From Deltaproteobacteria bacterium (lineage in GTDB: Bacteria > Desulfobacterota > Desulfuromonadia > Desulfuromonadales > Geopsychrobacteraceae): 48,495 nt of DNA. Every line of letters starts with the position of its first letter. Within the stretch, counting starts at the first letter, position 1. Of this stretch, positions 7,403 to 35,404 are shown piece by piece. Location of the stretch: contig JAJRQB010000072.1 of NCBI GenBank assembly GCA_024280485.1, positions 1 through 48,495 on the forward strand, in the 5' to 3' direction. The translations under genes were made by a program, and so were the position numbers. The notes beneath the pieces were generated by a model, which made no database searches, was not told the origin of the DNA, and saw only the letters and a program-made list of their open reading frames with translations.

Positions 7403-7569
7403 TAACAGTCTGTCGGCCTTGCCGGACCGAAGCGAAAATTTGAGCGTTTGAGACCAGATTTTCGCTCGTTTGCAGGCTCATAGCCATAGCTATGGGGCAA
7501 AAAGGAGCGGGAATCTGGACCAAAAGAACAAATTTGCAGCCGGTTCATGGAAAGCCCGACAGGCTGTTA
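7403..7569. repeat. MITE-like dispersed element, copy A (cobO/cobU gap)
   Basis: 167 bases bounded by imperfect terminal inverted repeats: 7403-7420 and 7552-7569 are complementary at 16 of 18 positions and end in TAACAG/CTGTTA. Inside are the palindromic core CATAGCCATAGCTATGG and a hairpin with arms 7431-7442 and 7455-7466 (11 of 12 complementary). A second copy lies at about 41181-41340. The outer TTA (7567-7569) is the cobO stop codon. No coding sequence is evident, so if mobile it would need a transposase in trans. Confidence 0.75.
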
Positions 7570-8130: not shown

Positions 8131-8179
8131 ACATCACACAAGACTCCGGCCCTCTCCCGCGAAAGGGGCAGTGAAACAG

Positions 8180-8352
8180 ATCCGGGCAGGTCTCCTGGCT
8201 TGTGGGTCAGCTTACTGACCGGCCCTTCCCGCTCTGTTCTAACAGAGCAGTGGTCTGCCGGTGTTCATCACCACTTACAGTTGCGGGGCAGCGAGGGCTT
8301 TTCACCCTCTTCCCTATTCTCCCGTCATCAATCAGCAATGACAGGCACCAAA
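8180..8352 (-). promoter_or_regulatory. Cobalamin (adenosylcobalamin) riboswitch
   Basis: On the minus strand the conserved elements occur in order: GGTGCCTGT (8349-8341), the GGGAGAATAGGGAA segment, GTGAAAAGCCCTCGC, TGCCCCGCAACTGTAA, and the B12 box AAGCCAGGAGACCTGCC (8201-8185). This is the full cobalamin aptamer. It precedes a terminator and cobO, so it should turn the whole cob/bzaF/cbi operon down when coenzyme B12 is plentiful. The region between it and engB (8353-8409) shows no clear -10/-35 pair. Confidence 0.97.
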
Positions 8353-8409
8353 ATCTTATTAATTGTTGTTTTCAGTTTCTAGCAGAGCATCCTTTAAAAA
8401 GCAATCAGT

Positions 8410-10360: not shown

Positions 10361-10930
10361 TCAGTTTTTCTTGTCGGAATCTTTCTCATCACTGAACAGA
10401 TCTTCATCGCCCATCATCCCTTCATGCATACTATCGCCCATCATACCCTTGTGCATTCCCTCGCCCATCATACCCTTGTGCATTCCCTCGCCCATCATAC
10501 CCTTGTGCATTCCCTCGCCCATCATACCCTTGTGCATTCCCTCGCCCATCATACCCTTGTGCATGCCTTCGTGCCTCATGCCCTTGTGCATACCTTCGTG
10601 CCTCATGCCACAATGATGGTTGTCATCTGCACCTCCGGTCAGGGATTGATAGTCTTTCTTCATTTCGTTCATCTCAGCACGAAGTTTTTTCAATTGCCCC
10701 AGAGTGGTCTCATCGTTACTTCGCGCCTTACGAATTTCATCACGCTTGTCGTTTATTTTAATCTTGATCGAGTCTAACTCTGCGCTCTGTTCGTCAGAAA
10801 CAGCGCTTGTTTGATCTGAGTCGTCACCGTGGTCACAAATCATCTCACCACAGCTACGGTGGGCCATAGCGGTTCCTGCGAAAAAGAAGAATGCGACAAA
10901 AATCATCAATCCCAAGTTTATGCTTTTCAT
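10361..10930 (-). CDS. Secreted Met/His-rich repeat protein, probable metal binder
   Basis: 189 residues from the ATG at 10930, chosen because AAGGAG lies 6 bases upstream; a longer frame to 11014 lacks a site. Residues 1-22 are a signal peptide (LGLMIFVAFFFFAGTAMA). The middle is charged and helical, resembling the coiled segment of Spy/CpxP-like or heavy-metal-resistance proteins. The C-terminal half is a tandem nonapeptide MGEGMHKGM, with HEGMHKGM variants, followed by an acidic tail. Clustered Met and His suggest copper, silver or nickel binding in the periplasm; this is inference. I do not recognise the family firmly. Transcription appears monocistronic. Confidence 0.8.
   Translation of the reverse strand: MKSINLGLMIFVAFFFFAGTAMAHRSCGEMICDHGDDSDQTSAVSDEQSAELDSIKIKINDKRDEIRKARSNDETTLGQLKKLRAEMNEMKKDYQSLTGGADDNHHCGMRHEGMHKGMRHEGMHKGMMGEGMHKGMMGEGMHKGMMGEGMHKGMMGEGMHKGMMGDSMHEGMMGDEDLFSDEKDSDKKN
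10410..10598. repeat. 27-bp tandem repeat (minisatellite), seven units
   Basis: Seven consecutive 27-base units from 10410; the four at 10437-10544 are identical and the outer ones diverge. Being a multiple of three it encodes nine residues per unit on the minus strand (MGEGMHKGM) in the Met/His-rich protein. Copy number can change without frameshift. Confidence 0.95.
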
Positions 10931-11085
10931 TTTTATCTCCTTAGCAAAACAGTTCAGATCCAGATAAACGACGACCTTCTCAGGCAATCCTCTCTCAACT
11001 GAAGGCATTGACAATCATCTTACCTCAAAATTCATAAACAGCAATCAACCTACCCCCAACATGTGCCATACAAAGAAAAGAATAG

Positions 11086-18233: not shown

Positions 18234-19490
18234 CTATTCGCGGACCTGCCCATCACCCAGCACAATAAACTTGCGGGTGGTCAGATCCTCTAGCCCCATC
18301 GGGCCAAATGAGTGCAATTTGGAAGTCGAGATGCCGATCTCAGCCCCGAGACCGAGTTGCCCCCCATCCGAAAAACGGGAAGAAGCATTGACCATCACAA
18401 CGCTCGAATTGATCTCACGTAAGAAGCGTTGCGACATCGCATAGTCACGCGTAATAATCGTCTCGGTATGCAATGAACAGTAGCGATTGATATGATCACG
18501 GGCCTCATCGAAACCATCAACCACCTTAACCGCCAGAATCAGATCCAGATATTCAGCCGACCAGTCCTCTTCGGTCGCAACGTTCATCTCCGGCACCAGA
18601 TTACGTGAGGCTTCACAGCCACGCAACTCAACCCCGGCCCTTATCATGGCTGCGGCAATCTGCGGTAAAAAAACCGGCGCGGCATCTCGATGCACCAGCA
18701 GAGTCTCGAGAGCATTGCACACTCCAGGACGCTGAACCTTTTCATTCAAGCAGATTTTTTCCGCCATGTCGAAATCGGCATCGGCATCAACATAGGTATG
18801 ACAGACCCCCTTGTAGTGCTTAATCACCGGAATCCGCGAATGCTCACTGACGAAACGGATCAGCCCTTCACCGCCGCGTGGAATAATCAGATCGATATGC
18901 TCTTCAAGTTTGAGCAATTCAGTCACCGCACTGCGATCACTGGTGGTGACCACCTGTAAGGCTTCTGCGGGGAGACCTATCTCGGCAAGTGCTTTCTGCA
19001 ACACTTCACCAATGGCACGGTTAGAATGAATAGCCTCAGACCCGCCGCGCAGGATAACAGCATTACCACTCTTGAGACAGAGCCCTGCGGCATCAGCCGT
19101 AACATTGGGGCGTGACTCGTAGATGATCCCGATGACACCGAGCGGAATCCGCTGGCGCCCAACCCGAATGCCATTGGGACGCACCCACATGCCCGTCACC
19201 TCACCGACCGGATCAGGTAGAGCGGCAACTTCACGCAATCCACCAGCCATCGACGCGATCACCTTATCAGAAAGCTCAAGACGATCCAGCATCGCAACAG
19301 CCATACCCTTGTCGCGAGCAGCTTGCAGATCGAGGGCGTTAGCCTGTTGCAAGACACTAGCACTCGCCTCCAGACGTGAAGCCATCTTCAACAGCAGTTC
19401 ATTCTTGACCCCCGAAGAGAGAGTCGCGATAACCCGAGAAGCGACGCGGGCCTGACTTGCAAGTTCCAACATTTCGCTTGCCATACTCAT
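18234..19490 (-). CDS. proA: Gamma-glutamyl phosphate reductase ProA
   Basis: Reduces gamma-glutamyl phosphate to the semialdehyde in proline synthesis. The 418 residues match the family, with the catalytic Cys in [19 protein letters not shown] and the cofactor-site [20 protein letters not shown]. The ATG at 19490 overlaps the proB stop by four bases, with GAGGAGG 7 bases upstream, so ProB and ProA are co-translated. Confidence 0.97.
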
Positions 19491-20641
19491 GCTTCAACCT
19501 CCTCTACAGTGTCACCAATCAACACCAGATTGTCACGATAGACCGCTTCGTCACGATATTGATACCCGAGGATCTGCTCAATCTCTGCACAACGATGTCC
19601 CTTGATCTGTCTCAGTTCGACGCTGTTATAGCTGGCAACACCGATCGCAAAAGGGATGCCATTTCGGTCACAGATATGTACAGCATCACCACGTTCAAAA
19701 TCGCCCTCGACAACCACAATCCCGGTCGGCAACAGACTCTTGCCGGAGTCAGCAACAGCCCTGACTGCGCCATCATCGAGTAGAAGTTTGCCACTAGGCT
19801 GCATCGTTAGCGCGATCCAACGCTTGCGCGCACTGAGCTTTGAAGCCGAGGCTAAAAAGAGGCTACCGACCTCGTCACCTTCGATGACCTGCCGCAGTAT
19901 CCCAGGTGCGCGACCATCGACGATCATGGTTGGAATCCCGGCGAGACTGGCTTTCTGTGCGGCCTGGAGCTTGGTCTGCATGCCACCAGTCCCCAGAGTT
20001 CCACGCGATGATCCCGCCATCGCCATGACCTCAGGGGTTATTTTTTCGATGAGTGGCAGAAACTGCGCACCCTTATCGCAAGCAGGATCACCGTCATAGA
20101 AGCCAGCCACATCAGAGAGGATCAACAACAGATCCACCTCCATCAAACTGGCAACCTGTGCCGAGAGGTTATCATTATCTCCAAAGCGGATCTCTTCGAC
20201 CACTACCGTATCGTTTTCATTGACGATCGGGGTTACCCCATACTCCAACAGAGCGTCGAATGTATTGTGCGCATTTAGGTAACGTCGCCGGTTTGATAGA
20301 TCATCGCGGGTCAACAGGACCTGAGCAGCGACACGGTTGTGGCGCTGAAAAACCTCTTTGTATGCACGCATAATGCGTGGTTGGCCGATGGCAGCAGCAG
20401 CCTGTTTTTGGGGAATAGTCTTGGGCCGTCCCGCAATTCCAAGTGAGTTACGCCCTGCAGCGACAGCCCCCGAGGAGACCAGGATCACTTCAATACCACG
20501 TGCGCAGAAGTCACAAATATCCTCGGCCAACTGAGCGATCATCACTCCATCGAGCCCTTCGGCTGTCGAGATAACTCCACTACCGACTTTAATTACGACC
20601 CGTTTGAGATTCTGCAGAATGTCTGCACGTACAGTATTCAT
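19487..20641 (-). CDS. proB: Glutamate 5-kinase ProB with C-terminal PUA domain
   Basis: First step of proline synthesis, feedback-inhibited by proline in characterised enzymes. The amino-acid-kinase core has [22 protein letters not shown] and [12 protein letters not shown]; a PUA domain follows from about residue 275. Full-length, about 384 residues. I chose the ATG at 20641 (MNTVRAD) over a GTG at 20659; neither has a strong ribosome site. The 77 bases to obgE hold no obvious terminator. Confidence 0.95.
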
Positions 20642-20718
20642 AGTCAGAGCAACTTTCACATCAATATCAAAAAATCCGATAGAAGCCTAAAAATATTAGC
20701 CTTTACAGATTATTGCTG

Positions 20719-29873: not shown

Positions 29874-30272
29874 TTATCTATTAAGAATGATCGCGGTTTT
29901 CCTCACGCCAAGTTGGCGTACGGCCTCAACCTCTAGCGAAAACAGGTGGGCAGCAATCCGCAACGGACTCCCCTTGACCAATTTAAGTTCCATTTCGTTT
30001 TCAACTAACTCAATTGCAACAACATCCCCTCTCAGGTCAACCTTCTTCTCCAGGCCCTTTTTGATCTGCACCGCCTCGACCCGTTCACTCGCGAGAAAAT
30101 CAGTAATTTTTCGAGCGAAATCGATGCTGATATCAGGCAGCGGTACACGATAAATACTGGCCGCCACGGATGCAGAAGGAGAAGGAACTCCCGCAGCAGG
30201 AATCTCTGCGGCAATAATGGAAAAGCCTTCGGGCAACTGATCGTTCAAACGCTGAGCAACCTCATCTGCTGC
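29874..30272 (-). pseudogene. 3' part of the radical SAM-DUF2344 gene, downstream of an in-frame TGA
   Basis: Reading on in the same frame past the TGA at 30275-30273 gives AADEVAQRLNDQLPEGF... to a TAA at 29874. The junction fits DUF2344 (TIGR03936) proteins, where the segment ending DIELxEP is followed directly by a xEEVxxRLNxxLPEGF-like segment. No ATG lies near the junction; a TTG at 30248 with GAGG 11 bases upstream could re-initiate and yield 124 residues. So the part is either a separately restarted peptide, a readthrough or selenocysteine-decoded extension, or the remnant of a gene broken by a nonsense mutation. The residual frame is intact, so decay, if any, is recent. Confidence 0.75.
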
Positions 30273-32369
30273 TCAAGGTTCAAAGAGTTCAATATCGACC
30301 AGTTCGGCCTCACTCTCCACCCCCATCGGCAAGGCTTCGAGATAGGAGACCTTCGGGGTTGGATGGAAGCCCTGAGAAAAACGTATCGGCAGTCTGGCAC
30401 GACGCACCGCGCGCTGAAACATCGTCAAATATTCCAAATGTGCAACCATCTTCGCCCGGCCGCGCTTAGCCAGTTTCAGACGGACCCGGAAACGCAGATC
30501 ATTGTCAACTGGTCCCTGCGGGTTGACTGAAGCCAGCGGCAACTGCTGCGGTTGCTGCAGGCGCATCTTCACCACTTCAAAATCGCAGACCCCGCAAGCG
30601 CTACAGTCGCCATCGCGACAGTCGGGCGTCCCAGCCAACTCCAGGGCTTTTTGCCGTTCTTTGACAAAAAAACTCTTCGGCAGACCGCAGTCGATATGAT
30701 CCCATGGCAGGACCTCACCCTCATCGCGCTCACGCAGATACCAGACGGGATCGATTTCAGCATCGATAAAAGCCTGTTGCCATTTGCCAAAGTTGAAATG
30801 CTCACGCCAACCGTCAAATCGGCACCCCGCAGCCAAAGCTGCTTCGAGAACCCGACCCAAACGCCGGTCGCCGCGGGCAAAGACCCCTTCAAGAAATGAG
30901 AGAGAGGCTTCGTGATATTTAAATTTCAACTTTTTTGCGCGCAAACCACCCTTGAGCAGTCCCTGCATACGTAAGATCTCATCGATGCCGAGCTGAGGTT
31001 CCCACTGGAAAGGGGTATGTGGTTTGGGCACGAAGGTCGAAACCGCGACATTGACATCGGCGCCCCCTTCGGTGCCCTTACCGCTACGCTTGACCCGTGC
31101 AGAAAGATCGATGATTGCCTGCAGGTCTTCGTCGGTTTCGGTCGGCAGTCCCATCATATAATAGAGCTTGATCACCCGCCAGCCGAGAGTAAATGCGTTG
31201 GTCGTCGTCTCGAGCAGTTCCTCTTCAGTGATCCCCTTATTGATCAGTTGTCGCATTCGCTCACTGCCGGCCTCAGGGGCCAGAGTGAAACCGGTCTTGC
31301 GAACCTTCTTGATCTCCTCCATCAAGCCTTCAGTCAAGGAGCCAACACGCAGGCTTGGAAAAGAGACAGCGACCCGCTCTTTTGCATATTTAGACATCAA
31401 ACCCTTCAAAAGCGGTTCGATGCAACTGTAGTCTCCGGTCGAGAGTGAAAGGAGCGAGATCTCCTCGTATCCCGAGTTAGTCAAGGCGGTTTCGACCAGT
31501 TCGGCAATCTTCTCCGGGCTACGTTCACGCACCGGACGGTAGATATAACCCGCCTGACAAAAACGACAGCCACGGGTGCAGCCGCGAGCAATCTCCATCG
31601 CGACCCGGTTATGCACCGTCTGCATAAAGGGGACGAGTGGAGCAGTCGGAAAGGGGGCGGTTTCAAGATCCGCCAAAAAACGCCGGCGAACTGTTGCGTA
31701 ACCTTCCTTTAATGGTTTTATTTCGGCAACCCGGCCATCTTCCTTGTAGACAATATCGAAGTAGGATGGGACATAAATCCCCTTAATGCAGGCCAGTTTG
31801 TTCAAAAGTTCTGAACGAGACAAGCCTTCTTTACGTGCGGCGCGCACAGCATTAACCAGCTCAACCAGGGCTTCCTCACCATCGCCGATCAGAGCGCAAT
31901 CGAAAAAATCGGCGAGGGGTTCGGGGTTGAAGGCGCAGGGCCCGCCGACAACAATAAGCGGAGCATCTTCACTTCTATCGGCGCGGCGCAGTGGCAAGCC
32001 AGCCAGTTGCAACATCCCAAGCACGTTGGTGTAGCTGAGCTCGTACTGCAGGGTGAAACCGATAATATCAAAGTCAGCCAACGGCAGCCCGCTCTCCAGA
32101 GAAGAGAGCGGAGCACCATCTCTTTCGAGAAGTTCGGCCATATCGGGCCAGGGGGCATAAACCCTCTCAGCGGAAATGCCTTCTAAATCATTGAGGATAC
32201 GGTAGAGTATCGGAAAACCAAGATAGCTCATCCCGATCTCGTAAACATCGGGGAAAGCCAGGACCATACGTAAATCGACCTGATCTGTACTCTTGCTGCG
32301 GCTGCCCAGTTCACCACCAAGATAGCGGGAGGGACGACTGACTTCAGTCAGCCTCTTAAAATCGCTCAT
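30273..32369 (-). CDS. Radical SAM protein (TIGR03960 type) with truncated DUF2344 domain
   Basis: 698 residues. The N-terminal part resembles the B12-binding-like region of this family (VYEIGMSYLGFPILYRILND). The radical SAM cluster CTRGCRFC is followed by QAGYIYRPVRERSP. A second Cys group, CRDGDCSACGVCD, lies near 600. The DUF2344 domain begins at about 640 (RVRLKLAKRGRAKMVAHLEYL) and is cut at DIELFEP by TGA; the continuation is in the same frame. In Geobacter-type genomes this family neighbours rng, as here. The biochemical role is not established. Confidence 0.88.
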   Translation of the reverse strand: MSDFKRLTEVSRPSRYLGGELGSRSKSTDQVDLRMVLAFPDVYEIGMSYLGFPILYRILNDLEGISAERVYAPWPDMAELLERDGAPLSSLESGLPLADFDIIGFTLQYELSYTNVLGMLQLAGLPLRRADRSEDAPLIVVGGPCAFNPEPLADFFDCALIGDGEEALVELVNAVRAARKEGLSRSELLNKLACIKGIYVPSYFDIVYKEDGRVAEIKPLKEGYATVRRRFLADLETAPFPTAPLVPFMQTVHNRVAMEIARGCTRGCRFCQAGYIYRPVRERSPEKIAELVETALTNSGYEEISLLSLSTGDYSCIEPLLKGLMSKYAKERVAVSFPSLRVGSLTEGLMEEIKKVRKTGFTLAPEAGSERMRQLINKGITEEELLETTTNAFTLGWRVIKLYYMMGLPTETDEDLQAIIDLSARVKRSGKGTEGGADVNVAVSTFVPKPHTPFQWEPQLGIDEILRMQGLLKGGLRAKKLKFKYHEASLSFLEGVFARGDRRLGRVLEAALAAGCRFDGWREHFNFGKWQQAFIDAEIDPVWYLRERDEGEVLPWDHIDCGLPKSFFVKERQKALELAGTPDCRDGDCSACGVCDFEVVKMRLQQPQQLPLASVNPQGPVDNDLRFRVRLKLAKRGRAKMVAHLEYLTMFQRAVRRARLPIRFSQGFHPTPKVSYLEALPMGVESEAELVDIELFEP

Positions 32370-32771: not shown

Positions 32772-32938
32772 CGAAATCATCTCTCATGTGGGAAGCCAGA
32801 GCCTGACGGACTATCCAATTGACGAGTATAACCCAATGCTGCAAGCAATTGACAGTTCCCCGGGCAAACCTTAGGATGAGTTTCTTCAGAGTAAAATTAT
32901 AGCTTCCAAACTTCTTGATTTTCGATACAGAGGCGATC

Positions 32939-34291
32939 ATGGCCAGGCAAAAGACCTTCTTCACCTGTCAACAGTGTGGTTTCCAGACCCCGAAATGGCT
33001 CGGAAAATGTCCGGATTGCAACCAGTGGAATACCCTGGCTGAAGAACAGAGTCAGCCACAGCAGGGAGGCCGCGCGCTTCCATCCCCGGGCAAACCGCAG
33101 AAAATGGCGGAAATCACTAGCACTGCCGAGGATCGGGTCAGTTGCGGTATCGCAGAACTCGACCGGACTCTGGGCGGCGGTCTGGTTCCGGGCTCGTTAA
33201 TCCTGGTCGGCGGAGATCCCGGCATCGGCAAGTCTACCTTGCTCCTGCAGGCCATCGATCAACTAGCTAAAACCGGCACTGCCCTCTATGTGACCGCCGA
33301 GGAATCGACCCGCCAGGTCAAACTCCGCGGCGAACGGCTCGGCGCAACTTCTCAAAATCTATACCTGCTCGCCGAGACCTCCCTCGAACAGATTCGCAAA
33401 CGGGTCGCCGAACTCAACCCTGATTATCTGGTCATCGATTCGATCCAGACTATCTTCACTAACAGCATCGAGTCGGCCCCTGGCAGCGTCAGCCAGGTAC
33501 GTGAGTGCGCCGGTCAGCTGATGATACTAGCAAAGGGGGAAGGAATTCCAACCTTTCTGGTCGGCCATGTCACCAAGGATGGTTCGATCGCCGGCCCGCG
33601 GGTGCTGGAGCACATGGTTGACACCGTGCTCTATTTTGAGGGCGACCCCGGCCACCCCTACCGAATTCTACGCGCAGTCAAAAACCGCTTCGGTTCGACC
33701 AACGAGATCGGCGTCTTCGAGATGTGTAGCAACGGCTTGCGCGAGGTCGCCAACCCTTCGGAACTTTTCCTGGCCGAAAGACCGGAAAAGAATGCCGGCA
33801 GTGTCGTCGTTCCCGCCCTGGAGGGCACCCGTCCGATCCTGGTCGAACTCCAGGCACTGGTTTCCAGCAGCAGTTTCGGCACCCCGCAGCGCACAGCAAT
33901 TGGAATCGATCACAAACGGATGGCCCTGCTGGTCGCCATCCTCGACAAAAAAGTCGAGTTACAACTCGCTGGGCAGGATATCTTTGTCAATGTCGCCGGT
34001 GGGGTGCGCCTGGACGAGCCCGCTATCGATCTAGCGACCATCGCTGCCCTGATCAGCAGCCACCTCAACCGCGCAGTTGAGTCGCAGACCGTCATCTTCG
34101 GTGAAGTTGGCCTGACCGGTGAGGTGCGTGCGGTTTCACAACCTGAGCTCAGAATCAAGGAAGCGGCGCGCCTCGGTTTCAATCGCTGTATTTTGCCGCA
34201 GGGAAGCCTGAAGAACATTACGACTCCAAAGGGAATGACACTGGTCGGCATCCGCCATGCCAGCGAACTGTTGGATCTGATCTTCAACTAA
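32939..34291 (+). CDS. radA: DNA repair protein RadA (Sms)
   Basis: RecA-like helicase aiding branch migration in recombination. 450 residues from the ATG at 32939 (GAGG 5 bases upstream). Zinc finger [18 protein letters not shown], Walker [11 protein letters not shown], the [11 protein letters not shown] motif specific to RadA, and a Lon-protease-like C-terminal domain ([17 protein letters not shown]). Complete and typical. moaC follows after 32 bases on the same strand. Confidence 0.97.
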
Positions 34292-34323: not shown

Positions 34324-34812
34324 ATGAGTGAAAAATTGACCCACTTCGACTCCGAAGGTAAAGCGATCATGGTCGATGTCGGCGACAAGATATCAACCAG
34401 TCGCAAAGCACTGGCATGCGGTGAAATCCAAATGCAACCGACAACCCTCAAACGGATACTGGATCGCAACATAGAAAAAGGGGACGTCTTCGGCATCGCA
34501 CGGATTGCCGGAATTATGGCCGCCAAACAGACCCCCAATTTGATACCTCTTTGCCACCCTTTGGCACTGACCTCTGTCGAACTGGAATTTGTTCCACGCG
34601 CTGAAGATGGTGTTGTCGAGATCGCAGCCACCGCAAAGGTGAACGGTCAGACCGGAATCGAGATGGAAGCACTAACGGCGGTCTCGGTCGCAGCATTGAC
34701 CATATATGACATGTGCAAGGCAATCGACAAATTGATGGTCATTGGCGCGATACGTCTCCAGAAAAAAAGTGGTGGCAAGAGTGGAGAGTTCATTAGGCCT
34801 CAAGACTCCTGA
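34324..34812 (+). CDS. moaC: Cyclic pyranopterin monophosphate synthase MoaC
   Basis: Makes cPMP in molybdenum cofactor synthesis. The 162 residues include [55 protein letters not shown] (active-site residues) and the C-terminal KSGGKSG. AGGGAG lies upstream of the ATG. Partner moa genes are not in the window. It begins shortly after radA, possibly co-transcribed. Confidence 0.97.
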
Positions 34813-34888
34813 GTCTGCGATTTTACTTGGCACTATCTGTAGTTTTTTGTTAAATTTCATTGATCTATCTAGCGCTAAAGGCTGTTTG

Positions 34889-35404
34889 ATGTCGCAGTTC
34901 AAAATTCGCAAAAAGTTTCTTTTTGCTCTCGGTCTGATAAACCTGTTGTTAGTGACGCTACTGCTTCTGTGTATTATCCAGCAACAGGCCACCGGCAAGA
35001 TCGTTATTCTGGCCGCGATTATACTCCCGGTCTTGGCACTTTTTATCGAAAGCTGGCGTCGACAGATCAGCGTAAATGAAGATTCCATTGTCGCCTGTCG
35101 GCTGTTTCGCACAAAGAGAATCCCTTTTGGCGAAATCACCTCAGTCGATACGGTTAGAATTAGAAGACGTGTCTTTGTCAGCGTTAGTACAGAAGCCGAC
35201 TTCTTGCTCTTTTCAAACAACTACGACCACTTTGACCAACTGATAGAGCGACTACAAGAGCGACTGCCACATGCCGTGATCAGCGATGAGACCAGAGCCT
35301 TGGGGGCTGATCTACCACTAAAAAGCAATGACCTCTTCTCGATCTGGCTGGCGGTCGTGGTGCTTGTGCTAATTATCTATGTCCAACTGGGGGGCGCATT
35401 CTAA
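34889..35404 (+). CDS. Membrane protein with PH-like cytoplasmic segment, unknown function
   Basis: 171 residues from the ATG at 34889 (AAAGG 7 bases upstream; the frame is open to 34742 but overlaps moaC). Two N-terminal membrane segments (about 10-28 and 34-50), then a soluble stretch (about 52-145) with VNEDSIVACRLFRTKRIPFGEITSVDTV, reminiscent of a bacterial PH/DUF304-type domain, and a C-terminal membrane segment (about 152-168). No catalytic motif. Not recognised further. Located between moaC and the second dksA-type gene. Confidence 0.7.
   Translation: MSQFKIRKKFLFALGLINLLLVTLLLLCIIQQQATGKIVILAAIILPVLALFIESWRRQISVNEDSIVACRLFRTKRIPFGEITSVDTVRIRRRVFVSVSTEADFLLFSNNYDHFDQLIERLQERLPHAVISDETRALGADLPLKSNDLFSIWLAVVVLVLIIYVQLGGAF

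Follow-up and report, generated by a model that had tools for sequence, protein, structure and literature searches.

A lone TTA to TGA change (leucine to stop) at codon 699 very probably gives an ordinary stop codon in an otherwise normal gene for a B12-binding radical SAM/DUF2344 protein, either as an error in the assembly or as a young nonsense mutation. The gene lies in a window of 48,495 nucleotides (the whole stretch of DNA that was analysed) of the draft genome G000, and its parts are listed in Table 1. Under the proposed explanation one substitution would interrupt the gene and the UGA would be read as any other stop; we infer both the direction of the change and termination at this codon if the base is real. 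The two sub-cases are about equally likely. In the case of a base error or a minor allele in the assembly, the cell would make the full 831-residue protein, and in the case of a young and real nonsense mutation it would make a 698-residue product without more than half of the TruA-like C-terminal domain.

Table 1. Coordinates in the window of the interrupted radical SAM/DUF2344 gene and its parts.
Feature	Position	Strand	Remark
Full frame, B12-binding radical SAM/DUF2344 gene	29874-32369	-	831 codons with the TGA included, followed by TAA
698-residue ORF ending at the TGA	30273-32369	-	TIGR03960 region and first 71 residues of DUF2344
In-frame TGA, codon 699	30273-30275	-	TTA in the nearest relative
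132-codon tail	29877-30272	-	Rest of DUF2344; purifying selection still acting
Short hairpin, TGA within its 5' arm	30253-30275	-	Different predicted fold in the nearest relative

The interrupted frame and codon 699 in relatives

Translation of the full frame yielded 698 residues, the TGA, 132 further codons and a TAA in a single frame, confirming the coordinates and lengths in an earlier note on this DNA, which had the TGA splitting the gene without a frameshift. The same note held that the continuation is normal DUF2344 sequence, and it does complete the TIGR03936 profile (residues 628-825), of which the 698-residue product reaches only positions 1-70 of 209; the Pfam DUF2344 profile behaves likewise. 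When the TGA is translated as a residue, the full frame passes the curated cut-offs of both TIGR03960 (766.9 bits vs 462.3) and TIGR03936/DUF2344 (167.8 vs 71.9); it differs from known proteins of this fused kind by the one in-frame TGA. An RNase G family gene adjoins it. A literature search for TIGR03960 or TIGR03936 found no paper.

The nearest relative, G007 (protein 96% identical; DNA 92-93% identical over long matches to the window), has TTA at codon 699, one substitution from TGA. Leucine occupies the site in seven of the eight same-genus relatives and valine in one, the codons other than that of G007 being CTT, CTG, TTG, CTG, GTG and TTG, with CTG in G008. Across 111 family loci, with the window itself excluded and some genomes present twice from two collections, the site holds V in 31, L in 22, M in 11, I in 8, a gap in 9, Cys in 1 and others in fewer. 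The earlier note had proposed aligning relatives at this residue; a sense codon in all eight same-genus relatives, with no stop at the site in the 111 loci (including the nine with a gap there), supports its option of a nonsense mutation or sequencing error. Because the nearest relative has an ordinary leucine codon, a hidden selenocysteine is not the likely reading of the lone stop, which is most probably a sequence error or a nonsense mutation of recent origin.

An orthologue row, at least partial, was obtained in 59 of the 60 genomes searched (G000 and 59 relatives), G013 having only a paralogue of ~40% identity; a few partial rows end short of codon 699, and row L028 was left out of a 30-row comparison of relatives. 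TGA at codon 699 was found only in G000 among the genomes searched. Two of the 59 have an internal stop, namely G000 and G003 (TAG at residue 732, a different site), and the 44 family genomes searched contain the same two. Among the 111 loci, stops in relatives occur only at residue 732 (L006) and at residue 615 (L101, near the domain boundary).

Selenocysteine, readthrough and re-initiation at the UGA

Selenocysteine inserted at this UGA by SelB and tRNA-Sec is hardly credible, even with the machinery at hand. The earlier note had suggested looking for selA, selB and selC, and the G000 assembly contains tRNA-Sec (anticodon TCA) and adjacent SelA and SelB on contig C153. They are directly followed by selD, with an in-frame TGA in SSG-U-AAKIGP (cluster at G000:C153:79461-83766, L172), which we take to be the usual Sec/Cys site of SelD. 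Judged by this gene content, G000 evidently does decode UGA as selenocysteine elsewhere. The DUF2344 gene thus resembles selenoprotein genes with a bacterial SECIS element, such as the selD of G000, in having an in-frame TGA and selenocysteine machinery in its genome, and the hairpin that starts at the UGA also speaks for this reading. It differs from them in that the site is other than Cys in nearly all homologues (Cys in just one of the 111 loci), the UGA is kept neither in the eight same-genus relatives nor in the 111 loci, and the hairpin does not fit the bacterial SECIS model. As given in a review (PMC13188914), the model asks for a stem of 4-16 bp with an energy of -7.5 kcal/mol or lower and a 3-9 nt loop that begins 16-37 nt downstream of the UGA and has G in its first two positions; some real SECIS elements lie outside it, according to the same text. 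Scanned for unbroken stems only, the selD positive control fits the model with a GUG loop 33 nt after the TGA on a 9-bp hairpin of -14.2 kcal/mol. SECIS prediction, a further check named in the earlier note, found no hairpin fitting the model at the DUF2344 TGA, where the best structure at 16-37 nt spacing is at +1.3 kcal/mol. By chance, 44 of 800 codons of the radical SAM/DUF2344 gene pass every SECIS rule. Selenocysteine at codon 699, one of the options in the earlier note, was rejected on the residue in homologues and the SECIS geometry. The gene offers a clean example that an in-frame TGA need not be selenocysteine even with complete selenocysteine machinery; what decides the matter is the residues that relatives have at the site, together with a SECIS positive control taken from G000 itself.

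The perfect 6-base hairpin that the earlier note placed on the TGA is present (30275-30270 pairs with 30258-30253). In a 50-nt fold the hairpin has 8 bp and a 7-nt loop, and of the GGU that the note located in the loop two bases are paired. The loop begins 5 nt after the UGA. The fold is only modestly more stable than chance (z -1.85; 8 of 200 shuffles at least as stable), and perfect 6-bp hairpins start on 26 of 2040 TGA triplets in the window, both strands counted, and on 7 of 816 codons of the radical SAM/DUF2344 gene. The same stretch of G007 is not predicted to form the hairpin, and Rfam gave no match up to E 5 over 30150-30350. Genome-wide reassignment of UGA was also rejected, as TGA terminates 15 of the 35 window genes.

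Functional readthrough, in which a near-cognate tRNA would decode the UGA at a low level, yielding some full-length product and keeping the tail under selection, is very unlikely. The constraint on the tail is in its favour, as is a survey that has reported bacterial in-frame stops with dN/dS below 1 and argued for frequent readthrough (PMC7918605). The survey kept only stops common to at least two species to limit artefacts (PMC7918605), whereas the stop at codon 699 is in one genome only, and a stop of recent origin would account for the constraint just as well. The mark of programmed readthrough, a stop kept among relatives at the site, was found neither in the eight same-genus relatives nor in the 111 loci. 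Among 42 tRNA matches of G000 (ARAGORN; 150 of 194 candidates scored), only tRNA-Sec reads UGA and no other opal suppressor was seen, in a set that is incomplete, tRNA-Trp, tRNA-Tyr and tRNA-Ile (anticodon GAT) being likewise unseen.

A protein in two pieces, with termination at the TGA, re-initiation at TTG 30248 and assembly of the products, is highly improbable. The TTG lies nine codons past the TGA, and a GAGG is located ten bases upstream of it. Six of the eight genomes compared have this GAGG at the same position, and in the five relatives among them it encodes part of an unbroken frame, so it did not come about as a signal for initiation in G000. The cut would also fall inside the modelled TruA-like fold, before its midpoint, and no relative among the 111 loci has a stop there, the two found being those at residues 732 and 615. 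For the programmed readthrough and re-initiation that the earlier note had listed, no positive evidence emerged beyond the constrained tail.

The tail and the TruA-like domain

Judged by substitution patterns, the tail is still under purifying selection. Between G000 and G007, dN/dS is 0.187 in the tail (12 nonsynonymous and 19 synonymous differences), 0.077 in residues 1-627 and 0.023 in residues 628-698. In each of the 11 pairs compared, the dN of the tail exceeds that of residues 1-627. On the G000 branch, 22 synonymous and 4 nonsynonymous codon changes precede the stop and 6 and 4, respectively, follow it, a lean towards relaxation in the tail that is not significant (Fisher p 0.18). Between G003 and G006, dN/dS is 0.165 past the TAG of G003 and 0.043 in both residues 1-627 and residues 628-731. 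Because constraint on the tail is kept, the stop must be of recent origin, not real or bypassed, three cases among which the tail data do not choose.

A model of the C-terminal domain (residues 601-831, with Leu in place of the TGA) was built on 62 aligned sequences and has a mean pLDDT of 87.9. Among solved structures it comes closest to the TruA-type pseudouridine synthases (best Foldseek E 4.8e-8), with PUS3 matching at Z 14.6 over 194 aligned residues and 3.5 A; the domain sequence profile against TruA was not significant (best E 0.059), and the relation rests on the fold. An earlier paper lists DUF2344 with a pseudouridine synthase family in one Pfam clan (PMC7955657), so the relation is not new. 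In the model the stop is residue 99, between a predicted strand (85-95) and helix (101-111), and it removes the rest of the domain, including the invariant Leu-Pro at 712-713. A 698-residue product would be unlikely to keep a working C-terminal domain. As a separate observation, the catalytic Asp of TruA, in the motif that we took for the comparison, seems lost from DUF2344 (window 29877-30488, reverse strand) in both alignment registers considered. This hints that DUF2344 may be an RNA-binding domain without TruA activity, carried by a radical SAM enzyme whose gene adjoins one of the RNase G family.

Lone stops in sister drafts and the second copy

Lone stops were counted in stretches of sister genomes homologous to the window genes, a stop being internal if over 25 codons away from both ends of the gene. 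Two of 37 ORFs (10361-11014 and 34742-35404) and hits of 55% identity or less were left out, and five stops nearer to an end than this limit (two in G007, two in G001, one in G004) did not count as internal. G007 has one internal stop in 35 genes (12,485 codons), where the homologue of 19487-20659 has TAG for TGG; G003 has one in 12 genes (4,308 codons), namely that in the radical SAM/DUF2344 gene; and G006 has one in 5 genes (2,167 codons). The last is a TGA that replaces a glycine in GDPGIGKST (L038, G006:C38), in the homologue of window 32915-34291, which we take to be RadA and its Walker A motif. G001 has none in 21 genes (7,954 codons) and the single-contig G004 none in 11 (4,180 codons). 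Outside G000, whose stop prompted the study and which is no unbiased sample, the total is three lone stops in 31,094 codons, a small control; we estimate that such a rate would need many base errors, were all three errors. A stop within the Walker A motif of RadA leaves little room for readings other than an error or a broken allele, so a single TGA of this kind in one of the drafts is not in itself a signal.

A known parallel is the interrupted coding sequences of bacteria, caused by nonsense mutations and sequencing errors, which share with the DUF2344 gene a lone break and full-length relatives. In one study, 28 of 73 resequenced interrupted genes of M. smegmatis were sequencing errors and none of the 28 was a miscalled base, whereas the DUF2344 change is a substitution (PMC1852416). 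Searching the literature for lone nonsense codons and assembly errors in genomes from metagenomes gave no result.

Independent DUF2344 stops in two of nine same-genus genomes (TGA 699 in G000, TAG 732 in G003) bear on a further reading, in which the TruA-like domain would be being throttled or lost in the genus, with stops tolerated through leaky readthrough or a tail dispensable under some conditions. The chance of the lone stop of G003 falling in codons 699-831 is ~3% (133 of 4,308), a figure calculated after the fact, and the two stops are a weak basis; the reading is quite unlikely. Were it true, the gene would become a further example of a conserved and probably RNA-related enzyme in which stops are retained.

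The G000 assembly holds a second, intact copy of the gene on contig C131 (L034:6389-8911), which shares 68% identity with the copy in the window, 68-71% with its own genus and 80% with a genome of another genus. Replacement by this copy was rejected. Being closer to another genus than to its own, it is either on a contaminant contig or a transfer. A search of plasmids returned 23 records, all below 60% identity. Apart from the gene, a stretch of ~150-160 bases occurring at window 7406-7569 and 41181-41333 matches L034 4949-5111 at 75.6% and 79.1%, respectively, with no Rfam family reaching its gathering score on it, and a cobalamin riboswitch (RF00174, 125.3 bits) is located at window 8168-8367 on the reverse strand.
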